This document shows positions 1,357 through 59,664 of a stretch of DNA of 64,000 nt, one piece after another (the stretch's first letter is position 1; every line of letters begins with the position of its first letter). The notes under the pieces are model-generated. The model saw nothing but the letters and a program-made list of their open reading frames with translations. It was not told the origin of the DNA and did not search any database. This DNA comes from Cyanobacterium stanieri PCC 7202. Its GTDB lineage: Bacteria > Cyanobacteriota > Cyanobacteriia > Cyanobacteriales > Cyanobacteriaceae. A program made the position numbers and the translations under genes. Location of the stretch: contig CP003940.1 of the NCBI GenBank assembly GCA_000317655.1, forward strand, positions 1,550,001 to 1,614,000. Reading direction: 5' to 3'.

Positions 1357-2052
1357 TTAAGCAGTAACTAACTCTTTATCAGGACGCTTACTGTTACGGA
1401 TACCTTCAATGGCTTCTGCATAGTCAGGAGCTTTGAATACCGCAGATCCAGCTACGATCGCATTTGCACCTGCTTCTAAAACCTGCCAAGTATTATTAGG
1501 TTTCAAACCACCATCAACCTCAATCCAAGGATCTAAACCTCTCTCATCACACATTTGACGAAGAGCTTTAATTTTGGGTACCACACCAGGGATGAAACTT
1601 TGACCACCAAACCCAGGGTTAACACTCATGATGAGGACTAAATCACAGACATCAATCACGTACTCGATCAACTCAAGGGGAGTAGAAGGATTTAACACAA
1701 CCCCAGACTGTTTACCCAACTCACGAATCTGGCACAAGGTACGATGTAAATGGGGAGAAGCATTATGCTCCGCATGAACAGAAATAATGTCAGCCCCTGC
1801 CTTAGCAAAATCTGCCACATACTTCTCAGGTTCAACAATCATTAAATGAACATCTAAAGGTTTTTTGGTATGGGGGCGAATGGCATCAACAATTAAAGGA
1901 CCAATGGTGATATTAGGTACAAAACGACCATCCATCACATCCACATGAATCCAATCAGCACCAGCCTCATCAACTGCTCTAATTTCCTCCCCTAAACGAC
2001 TGAAATCAGCGGATAAAATGGAGGGTGAAATAACTATATCTTTCTTACTCAT
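1357..2052 (-). CDS. rpe: Ribulose-phosphate 3-epimerase
   Basis: Interconverts ribulose 5-phosphate and xylulose 5-phosphate in the Calvin cycle and pentose phosphate pathway, in the cytosol. The 231-residue length is normal for this TIM-barrel family. Visible hallmarks are [16 protein letters not shown] at the N-terminus, the metal-binding [12 protein letters not shown] and DVHLMIVEP strands, [12 protein letters not shown], and the C-terminal phosphate-binding VDGG and AGSAVF segments. The ATG start gives the usual short leader before ISPSILSAD. It is transcribed leftward, divergent from folE, with the shared 187-bp gap holding the Zur-like site. Confidence 0.97.
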
Positions 2053-2190
2053 AAGTAGTTTATTTAAAATATGCTTGGACTTGTGTTGATTTTAACAAAA
2101 TATTGCCAATTTCTTTCCTCAAAACTCCTAATCACTTCTTTTCTAGTTTTTTCTGGTAAAAGGTCACCAAAAAATTAATTGTCGTTTTAT

Positions 2191-2207
2191 ATGATAATGG
2201 TTATCAT
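2191..2207. promoter_or_regulatory. Zur-like operator upstream of folE
   Basis: ATGATAATGGTTATCAT is a perfect 7-3-7 inverted repeat. It closely matches the cyanobacterial Zur consensus as I recall it (TGATAAT-n-ATTATCA). It sits 33 bases before the folE ATG, in the promoter-proximal zone. A Fur-family site is an alternative, but the downstream zinc-linked genes favour Zur. The identification is inference from sequence and context. Confidence 0.65.
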
Positions 2208-2239
2208 TTTTAAAGTAATGATTTATTAATCACATAAAA

Positions 2240-2899
2240 ATGACATTCACTCAATCCTCGATAAAGAAAACGGTAGGAGAAAAAAATCAATTACCTTCCC
2301 TTGTCACAGAAGCCCAACCCCAAGTAAGTGAAGCGGAAATGATTGAAGCGGTAAAAACGCTCTTAATTGGTTTGGGTGAAAATCCAGATCGAGAAGGATT
2401 AAAAGATACCCCCAAAAGAGTAGTAAAGGCTCTTAAGTTTCTGACCTCGGGTTATCATCAATCCTTGGATGAATTACTCAATGGTGCTGTGTTCCATGAA
2501 AATGCCGATGAAATGGTATTAGTTCGGGATATTGATTTATTTAGTTCTTGTGAACATCATATTTTGCCTATTCTAGGACGTGCGCACGTAGCTTATATCC
2601 CTAACGGTAAAGTAATCGGATTGTCAAAAATTGCGAGAATTTGCGAAATGTATGCCAGAAGATTGCAGGTACAAGAACGTTTAACTGCCCAAATCGCCGA
2701 TGCTCTGCAAGGTTTATTAAAGCCCCAAGGGGTGGCTGTGGTGGTGGAAGCCAGTCACATGTGTATGGTGATGCGTGGGGTACAAAAACCCGGTTCTTGG
2801 ACTTCTACGAGTGCTTTACGAGGTGTATTTGCTGATGATGCAAAAACCCGTCAAGAGTTTATGAATTTAATTCAACACCGCCCCAGATTTAATAATTAA
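2240..2899 (+). CDS. folE: GTP cyclohydrolase I
   Basis: Converts GTP to 7,8-dihydroneopterin triphosphate, the first step of folate and pterin synthesis; a cytosolic zinc enzyme. The 219 residues fit the type IA family. After a variable N-terminal ~35 residues come the conserved helix [22 protein letters not shown] and the zinc ligands C104 and H107 (in SSCEHH) and C175 (in HMCMVMRG). The C-terminus TSALRGVF is also typical. The start is ATG at 2240. A Zur-like palindrome lies just upstream and a COG0523 GTPase follows after 106 bases, so this copy is probably tied to zinc status. Whether another folE exists elsewhere cannot be seen here. Confidence 0.96.
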
Positions 2900-2972
2900 C
2901 CTCAGTTTGGGATAATAGTTATAAGTATGGTAGAGGACGTAGCATGCTACGTCCGTACAGGTTTCTCAAGTT
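2898..2972. repeat. Repeat family A (partial) with a 20-bp perfect palindrome
   Basis: Begins AACCTCAGTTTGGGATAA, the family A terminus. It contains GGACGTAGCATGCTACGTCC (2935-2954), which equals its own reverse complement, followed by GTACAGG. The same segment recurs inverted at 28107-28143 and partly at 54548-54566. It lies between folE and the COG0523 gene. Confidence 0.7.
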
Positions 2973-3005
2973 AGAGTATAGTTATTATTTTATTTTTTAG
3001 TTTAT

Positions 3006-4046
3006 ATGGATAATTTAGTTTTACCCAAAAGAGGAATGCCCGTAACGATTATCACAGGATTTTTGGGCAGTGGCAAAACAACTCTTTTAAATCATATTTT
3101 GACTAATAATCAAAATTTAAAGGTTGCGGTTTTGGTTAATGAGTTTGGGGATATTGATATTGATAGTCAGTTATTGGTATCGGTGGAGGAAAATATGCTC
3201 AGTCTCAGTAATGGGTGTATTTGTTGCACGATTAATGATGATTTATTGGATACTGTTTATCAGGTATTAGAAAGTGAGCAAAAGGTGGATTATTTGATCG
3301 TGGAAACCACGGGAGTGGCTGATCCTTTGCCTATTGTCTTAACTTTTTTGAGTCCTGAGTTAAGGGATTTAGTTCGTCTTGATTCTGTGTTGACTTTGAT
3401 TGATGCGGAAAATTTTACTCCTGATCATTTTGAAAGTGATGCGGCACTCAAGCAGGTTATTTATGGTGACATTATTTTACTCAATAAAATTGATTTAGTT
3501 TCTGAGGAAAAAGTTGAGGAGTTAGAGAAAAATATTCTTTGTATTAAGGAGGGGGCAAGTATTTTACGTTGTGAAAATGCTAAGGTGCCTTTACCTTTGA
3601 TTTTGGACGTGGAACGAAGTAATATCAATAATTATCCTCAAGAAAAACCCCACTCATCCCATGATCATCATCACCATGATCATGATCATGAACATCATCA
3701 CCATGATCATGATCATGAACATCATCACCATGATCACGATCACCATTCCCATCATTTAGAAATAGATGGTTTTATTTCCGTTTCTTTTGAGTGCGATCGC
3801 CCTTTTAATGTAGATAAATTTCAAAACTTTATCACTGATAATATCATGGCAAAAGTATATCGAGCCAAGGGGATTTTGTGGTTTGCCGAAAGTGAACTAA
3901 AACATATTTTCCAACTCAGTGGCAAACGCTATGATTTAAACACAGAGGAATGGCAGAATAACCCCAAAAATCAATTAGTAATGATTGGCAAAGATATATC
4001 AGCAGATGATCTACGGACAAAATTAAAACAATGTGTAGTACAGTAG
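3006..4046 (+). CDS. COG0523/CobW-family GTPase with His-rich loop, putative zinc metallochaperone
   Basis: A G3E-class P-loop GTPase of 346 residues. Visible motifs are the Walker A GFLGSGKTT (18-26), the family-defining metal-binding CICC (71-74, in NGCICCTIND), NKID near residue 160, and a C-terminal CobW domain. Between the domains, residues ~215-250 form an extreme His/Asp run built from repeated HHHHDHDHE units. Members in Zur regulons (B. subtilis ZagA, the eukaryotic ZNG1 group) deliver zinc to client proteins. Location directly after folE, behind a Zur-like box, supports a zinc role over cobalamin or nitrile hydratase maturation. The client (FolE?) is inference. Confidence 0.9.
   Translation: MDNLVLPKRGMPVTIITGFLGSGKTTLLNHILTNNQNLKVAVLVNEFGDIDIDSQLLVSVEENMLSLSNGCICCTINDDLLDTVYQVLESEQKVDYLIVETTGVADPLPIVLTFLSPELRDLVRLDSVLTLIDAENFTPDHFESDAALKQVIYGDIILLNKIDLVSEEKVEELEKNILCIKEGASILRCENAKVPLPLILDVERSNINNYPQEKPHSSHDHHHHDHDHEHHHHDHDHEHHHHDHDHHSHHLEIDGFISVSFECDRPFNVDKFQNFITDNIMAKVYRAKGILWFAESELKHIFQLSGKRYDLNTEEWQNNPKNQLVMIGKDISADDLRTKLKQCVVQ
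3661..3750 (+). repeat. In-gene tandem repeat encoding the His/Asp tract
   Basis: About three copies of a 27-30 bp unit built on CATCATCACCATGATCATGA lie inside the COG0523 gene. They encode its metal-binding loop. Near-identity of the units suggests recent expansion by slippage. Confidence 0.8.
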
Positions 4047-59590: not shown

Positions 59591-59664
59591 TGGCTCGGGG
59601 CAGATTTGAACTGCCGACCTTGGGCTTATGAGTCCCCTGCTCTAACCTACTGAGCTACCGAGCC
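59591..59664 (-). tRNA. tRNA with CAU anticodon (probably elongator tRNA-Met)
   Basis: 74 bases on the minus strand. Acceptor GGCTCGG pairs with CCGAGCC plus discriminator A; D-stem GCTC/GAGC; anticodon loop CTCATAA; T-arm GGCAG-TTCAAAT-CTGCC. CCA is not encoded. The anticodon stem has two non-canonical positions (27-43 and 31-39). A lysidine-modified tRNA-Ile (CAU) is the alternative reading. Confidence 0.9.

Follow-up and report, generated by a model that had tools for sequence, protein, structure and literature searches.

Genes and features of the folE-II locus

The window analyzed here is a 64,000-nucleotide stretch of the Cyanobacterium stanieri PCC 7202 genome, and it holds a pair of plus-strand genes behind an operator-like palindrome. 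The first gene, folE-II (positions 2240 to 2899), encodes a type IA GTP cyclohydrolase I of 219 amino acids, and the second (3006 to 4046) encodes a COG0523 (CobW-type G3E) GTPase of 346 amino acids that a tree places in a zinc-cluster clade. The neighboring rpe gene (start at 2052) is transcribed away from the operator, and the neighboring subtilase gene is on the opposite strand. The first-pass annotation had reported a perfect 7-3-7 palindrome before folE, and we confirmed it: ATGATAATGGTTATCAT, the predicted Zur-like operator, occupies positions 2191 to 2207 (core 15-mer at 2192 to 2206) and ends 32 bases before the ATG at 2240. A −35-like hexamer, TTGTCG, lies on the plus strand at 2179 to 2184 and gives a sigma-70-like match (9/12, TTGTCG-17-TATCAT) with a −10-like TATCAT (2202 to 2207) that is overlapped by the right half of the operator. 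The sigma-70-like scan of positions 2050 to 3050 returned two sites versus 3.2 expected in shuffles and is not significant by itself. Zur sites with the same layout, over the −10 element, have been described for Anabaena all3515 (PMC10957091).

As described in the first-pass annotation, the two genes run in the same direction; they are separated by 106 bp, and their co-transcription is likely. No terminator was detected by a scan of positions 2050 to 3050, and folding of the gap is unremarkable (z = −1.14). A point against reading the pair as one unit is a repeat hairpin within the gap, formed by the perfect palindrome GGACGTAGCATGCTACGTCC (2935 to 2954). A role for this palindrome as a second regulatory site was dismissed, since it is a dispersed repeat outside the operator, with 49 genome places within two mismatches versus 0 for the reversed control and 31 exact copies among the matches listed. 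Searching the whole window against Rfam at the gathering threshold gave a tRNA (59591 to 59664) as the sole match and no riboswitch; hence, there is no ZTP riboswitch at that threshold.

Counting folE genes across the genome, as the first-pass annotation had suggested, gave two, and the window copy is the second. FolE-II scored 271.5 against TIGR00063 (cut-off, 181.6), the GTP cyclohydrolase IA family model, and also exceeded the cut-off of PF01227. In a tree of 78 sequences, comprising all 37 FolE-I and 41 of the 86 FolE-II sequences (classes first sorted by BLAST score), the branch separating FolE-I from FolE-II had support of 100/100. Among 60 genomes, the window's included, 26 encode a full FolE-II with at least 79% identity to that of the window, one (G009) has a more diverged copy, and four others contain FolE-II pieces. 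A folE copy at 63 to 72% identity is present in 58 of the 60 genomes; the clade of these copies was checked for part of them, and three have an in-frame stop in the match.

The first-pass annotation had also described the downstream product as a COG0523 GTPase with a CICC motif and a His/Asp loop, and family models and sequence bear this out. The protein scored above cut-off against PF02492 (191.5 bits) and PF07683 (71.8 bits), so that the G3E P-loop domain, the CxCC motif, and the CobW C-terminal domain of a COG0523 GTPase are all present; against the NCBIfam equivalogs it stayed below threshold (ZigA, 197.5 of 600; CobW, 179.2 of 332.1). The CICC motif (residues 71 to 74; plus strand, 3216 to 3227) belongs to a CxCC pattern found in 89/89 members of the zinc-cluster clade. 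The His/Asp loop (plus strand, 3651 to 3755) had been called unusually long, and this holds in part. Its 35 residues exceed the 12 to 23 residues in all seven relatives compared, but the loop derives largely from a 27-bp tandem repeat (3660 to 3742; 3.1 copies, 96%) and is unexceptional for the family: the maximal number of His per 60 residues is 23 here, versus a median of 14 among the 89 proteins of its clade and of 19 among the 13 proteins of a sister clade. The loop length thus looks strain specific, and as a marker of function the loop was rejected.

Linkage of FolE-II with COG0523 genes

A same-strand COG0523 gene lies within 600 bp of folE-II in 69 of 92 FolE-II loci (window included). 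After deduplication, COG0523 adjoins folE-II in 62 of 83 loci (42 upstream, 13 downstream, and 7 on both sides). No COG0523 gene was found beside FolE-I in 18 loci, of which three had 1.5-kb flanks and some others were cut by contig ends. In a tree of 112 COG0523 proteins, built by a quick method that gave long-branch warnings, the zinc-cluster clade (89 rows; SH-aLRT, 93) contains 51/51 upstream partners and 19 of the 20 labelled downstream, whereas the sister clade, to which the second His-rich gene of this genome belongs (13 rows; support, 87), contains no FolE-II partner. The “downstream” label changes five times on this tree, with at least four of the changes forced by starred branches.

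Several further arrangements were observed at these loci. The loci with COG0523 on both sides of folE-II are L065, L075, L076, L077, L079, L081, and L111, and in six of the seven the downstream COG0523 falls into a separate clade. At L237 (genome G008), which lies outside the 18 FolE-I loci counted above, housekeeping folE-I has, one gene away, a COG0523 gene that belongs, like G000:C1:468128, to the sister clade. A sufE-like gene precedes COG0523 in the zinc-type clusters of L075, L081, L227, L228, L229, L231, and L235 (with a Pfam check of its identity in L081 only), which hints that Fe-S assembly and zinc limitation may be connected. FolE-II zinc islands also occur in eight cyanobacterial plasmid records (81 to 85% identity), and the three opened (L251, L252, and L253) have copies of hemB, hisI, cysS, or dihydroorotase genes nearby. 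A hexapeptide-repeat protein with one RbcS-like domain, presumably a short CcmM-like protein, is encoded near folE-II in L252 (8024 to 8977), L253 (4625 to 5560), and L081 (8069 to 9007); the plasmid records of L252 and L253 annotate it as a RuBisCO small subunit, and in L252 the gene is preceded, at a distance of 7 bp, by a one-mismatch box.

The first-pass annotation had proposed a dedicated zinc-to-folate module. The distribution of the two genes speaks against such exclusivity, as each occurs without the other. Eight of 11 opened genomes lacking FolE-II (G050, G055, G034, G033, G025, G030, G052, and G027) have a zinc-clade COG0523; six of these have a box with at most one mismatch in the stretch examined, three have hemB2 in the COG0523 region, and several of the regions contain hemB2, sufE, or a second COG0523. 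Conversely, a COG0523 neighbor is missing from 21 of the 83 FolE-II loci, some of them cut by contig ends; in 10 of these 21, a box occurs in the 450 bp preceding folE-II. In two genomes of the same family (G006 and G009), a one-mismatch box lies between hemB2 and FolE-II; the 12 kb opened contained no COG0523, and none genome-wide exceeded 59% identity to that of the window. We therefore rejected the candidate role of the GTPase as an exclusive FolE chaperone.

These same occurrences favor the strongest alternative, to which we give a little less than an even chance: that the pair is indeed Zur regulated, with a GTPase that acts in general zinc allocation or on a different client, so that linkage reflects only shared regulation. 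In Anabaena, moreover, all attempts to detect an interaction between the COG0523 protein All4722 and its partner ThrS2 failed (PMC4787780), and hence a neighbor need not be a client. Against this alternative, COG0523 partners occur on either side of folE-II, with the repeated label changes noted above and with both sides occupied in seven loci. Further, in 15 genomes of the family a close GTPase orthologue (at least 79% identity) was detected in the 8 that carry the full pair and in no other, although linkage alone could cause this restriction and two of the other seven genomes are under 70% complete. That FolE-II is a direct client to which the GTPase delivers zinc is a tentative proposal, and we consider it less probable than its negation; the B. 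subtilis ZagA-FolE model and the reported CobW1 binding to FolE_IB2 in Cupriavidus (PMC10882993) favor it, and the All4722-ThrS2 result counts against it.

Metal site of FolE-II and conservation of the operator

Residues C104, H107, and C175, which we take to be the zinc ligands from known FolE structures, are invariant in FolE-II (86/86) and FolE-I (37/37). As FolE-II keeps all three ligands, it is not a zinc-free substitute. Some proteobacterial Zur regulons replace FolE by zinc-free FolE_IB (PMC2770081), and a zinc-independent FolE_IB substitute was also considered here; it was rejected, as the type IB family was not among the FolE-II matches at an E value of 0.001, where PF01227 and TIGR00063 matched instead. 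At the cut-offs used, 18 positions separate the FolE-I and FolE-II clades. The FolE-II-specific residues S103, I108, and I111 fall in the ligand loop, and C135 occurs in 85/86 FolE-II but 0/37 FolE-I sequences.

These loop residues and C135 could also be read as marks of an isozyme in which zinc is swapped for Fe, Mn, or Co, with the GTPase inserting that other metal, and an alternative metal has been suggested for Zur-induced paralogues (PMC2770081). We regard such a swap as improbable, given the invariance of the three ligands in 86/86 sequences and the finding that zinc alone, of the metals tried, gave activity in the comparable Anabaena ThrS2 (PMC4787780). Retention of zinc ligands in some Zur-induced paralogues is also described in PMC2770081, in a list that does not include FolE.

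Within the window, a scan for the palindrome with three mismatches allowed gave 4 matches versus a mean of 0.68 in 100 shuffles; the 4 matches are one site on both strands and two in His codons. In the genome (3,163,381 bp, one contig), the perfect 15-mer TGATAAYNRTTATCA occurs once. Allowing one mismatch raises this to 24 places, the operator included, versus 22 for the reversed control, and scanning with three mismatches gave 339 matches versus 325 in the control, with no discrimination. Loose match counts alone thus carry no weight, and it is the placement of the sites and their conservation between genomes that provide evidence. Neighbors were inspected for all 24 places of the TGATAAYNRTTATCA pattern but not for the 22 of the control. 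Five of the 24 lie at most 60 bp before a start, comprising four zinc-type promoters (that of folE-II included) and the site of a flavodoxin-like gene. Two more overlap the starts of a HupE-like and a thymidylate-kinase-like gene, and the other 17 are inside genes, behind genes, further from a start, or, at 2370251, near no called open reading frame. The first-pass annotation had raised the concern that the palindrome might be frequent before unrelated genes; the uniqueness of the perfect 15-mer and the zinc-type character of four of the five near-start places allay it.

One-mismatch boxes are located before the divergent znuC/znuA pair, directly before one of the genome's two thrS genes (55% identical to each other), and before a gene for a 262-amino-acid GTPase-like protein (weak CobW_C match, below cut-off) that heads a run with two phosphoesterase-like genes and thrS. 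The znuA gene was named by PF01297, and thrS and one phosphoesterase were identified by Pfam, the latter over its cut-off and the other phosphoesterase-like gene without a Pfam match; znuC and the flavodoxin, HupE, and thymidylate kinase genes were named by reading their translations. No box was found within 300 bp upstream of housekeeping folE or of the other His-rich COG0523 gene (G000:C1:468128), for which the best sites had 3 and 4 mismatches. One-mismatch boxes also lie before the flavodoxin-like gene (G000:C1:2946524) and over the start of the HupE-like gene (G000:C1:2839573), and these are possibly under Fur or other metal control.

Across genomes, the box has 0 or 1 mismatch in all eight same-family genomes with an intact pair (window included). 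In the alignment of these eight genomes, the invariant blocks of at least five bases before the start are TTGTC of the −35-like hexamer and stretches of the box and its flank. The remaining invariant columns are dispersed, and most of the surrounding sequence has diverged. The variable box columns are three: the first base (in one genome), the Y position, and the R position. The 65 FolE-II loci scanned, all from named genomes, total 685 kb; several are truncated at contig ends, and a few come from the same species. They contain 67 sites with no more than one mismatch, including 27 perfect ones, versus 0 to 2 sites and none perfect in eight dinucleotide shuffles. These sites are distributed over 45 of the 65 loci, many of them preceding the znuA, thrS, hemB, or COG0523 gene of the cluster rather than folE; the 20 loci with no site count against the reading. 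No such site was found in 15 FolE-I loci (164 kb).

The genome encodes four FUR-family proteins, and we assigned the candidate Zur (131 amino acids; G000:C1:2924049-2924444) by orthology only: it is the best match (44 to 48% identity) of the FUR gene in 7/7 FolE-II loci in which one was detected, and an eighth FUR gene, from a locus without FolE-II, best matches another paralogue. Both a Zur-type inverted repeat at the promoter and, by orthology, a Zur protein encoded in the genome are therefore at hand. In Synechococcus PCC 7002, folE-II on plasmid pAQ7, to whose product window FolE-II is 84% identical, is experimentally Zur regulated by transcript response (PMC4628125), and hemB-II, folE-II, a GTPase-like gene, and an FAD oxidoreductase gene of pAQ7 were raised in a zur mutant and by TPEN (Ludwig et al. 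2015, PMC4628125). In 14.6 kb of pAQ7, exactly two sites with at most two mismatches occur: one, with two mismatches, just before hemB, which is followed by folE, and a perfect one in the interval separating the FAD oxidoreductase gene from a divergent hypothetical gene; they match the units published as Zur and zinc controlled (PMC4628125). In addition, the Zur targets published for Anabaena and Synechococcus include folE2, a published table of the cyanobacterial Zur regulon contains folE2, hemB2, thrS2, all1751, alr1197, and all4722 (PMC6103462), and putative Zur sites before cyanobacterial COG0523 genes are given in PMC2770081. Between-genome footprinting, the recurrence of the box at zinc genes elsewhere in the genome, and the experimentally Zur-regulated orthologue together back the Zur-like operator of the first-pass annotation, and the sequence makes Zur control of the folE-II unit very probable.

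Some caution is in order, as similar sites, e.g., that of the flavodoxin-like gene, may be readable by Fur. An operator for Fur or PerR, by which the unit would answer iron or oxidative stress, would accord with that site, with the presence of four FUR-family genes, and with the 7-1-7 reading proposed for Anabaena FurA and Zur sites (PMC4005646). It is nevertheless very unlikely, since four of the five near-start places are zinc-type promoters, the orthologue is Zur and zinc controlled (PMC4628125), and the Anabaena FurA consensus as reported differs (PMC4005646). A chance palindrome before an ordinary folE, for which the 24 versus 22 genome places might be cited, is hardly credible given the enrichment of sites in FolE-II loci and, above all, an operator conserved in eight genomes amid mostly diverged sequence.

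Proposed mechanism and comparison with known systems

We hypothesize that zinc-loaded Zur would bind positions 2191 to 2207 over the −10 region and block transcription and that, as zinc falls, Zur would leave and folE-II and the COG0523 GTPase would be made. FolE-II, as a second type IA GTP cyclohydrolase still possessing a Cys/His/Cys metal site, could then sustain the synthesis of folate (and other pterins) when FolE-I is starved of zinc. The GTPase may bind zinc at its CICC motif and His loop and pass it, in a GTP-dependent manner, to FolE-II and probably also to other Zur-induced zinc enzymes. We assign a probability of roughly 0.87 to the central reading, a Zur-controlled zinc-limitation unit containing a zinc-type FolE. 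It draws on the operator, its overlap with promoter-like elements, conservation, paralogy, intact ligands, and linkage in the sequences, and on published Zur and zinc control of orthologues; we infer the Zur identity of the regulator in this genome, co-transcription, metal delivery, and the identity of the client.

A bolder and rather doubtful idea is that zinc shortage is met by swapping FolE-I not for a zinc-free enzyme but for FolE-II as a GTPase-loaded isoform, as might be suggested by the kept ligands, the changed loop residues (S103, I108, and I111), the gain of C135, and the retention of COG0523 through rearrangements. If true, this logic would explain how Anabaena ThrS2 works in low zinc, which PMC4787780 states to be unexplained. 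The folE-II/GTPase pair would link folate supply to zinc status in cyanobacteria. As COG0523 clients are known in few cases, housekeeping FolE-I and FolE-II in one cell offer a clean control, making assisted metallation directly testable.

The presence of folate-enzyme and COG0523 genes in cyanobacterial Zur regulons is already in print (PMC6103462, PMC2770081). New, as far as we have searched, are the linkage count, the intact ligands of FolE-II together with its clade-specific loop residues, and the lack of exclusivity. No statement of wide folE-II/COG0523 linkage was found in the open-access article text searched.

FolE-II and the kind of box are shared with the Zur regulons of Anabaena PCC 7120 and Synechococcus PCC 7002, which contain folE2/folE-II, hemB2, thrS2, znuABC, and COG0523 genes; the znu genes and the second thrS are boxed in C. 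stanieri too. The gene order differs, as folE-II leads and COG0523 follows in C. stanieri, whereas folE-II comes after hemB on pAQ7, where no gene within 7 kb of folE-II is annotated as GTP binding or COG0523. One gene of the pAQ7 cluster is called GTPase-like in PMC4628125.

Among more distant systems, the first-pass annotation had pointed to Bacillus subtilis, in which yciC is Zur controlled. Its product, ZagA (YciC), is likewise a COG0523 GTPase, proposed to supply a type IA FolE with zinc (PMC10882993), but in C. stanieri FolE itself is the Zur-boxed second copy beside the GTPase, and the analogy may hold in the sense of working alike rather than of membership. The cobW1-folE_IB2 operon of Cupriavidus metallidurans also joins a Zur-controlled COG0523 gene with a GTP cyclohydrolase gene, and CobW1 is reported to bind FolE_IB2 with zinc present (PMC10882993). 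However, FolE_IB2 is of type IB and not strictly zinc dependent, whereas FolE-II is of type IA with all zinc ligands. In the Anabaena thrS2-all4722 pair, a Zur-induced paralogue of a zinc enzyme with intact ligands is co-transcribed with a COG0523 gene (PMC4787780), an arrangement like that proposed for C. stanieri but built around a different enzyme.
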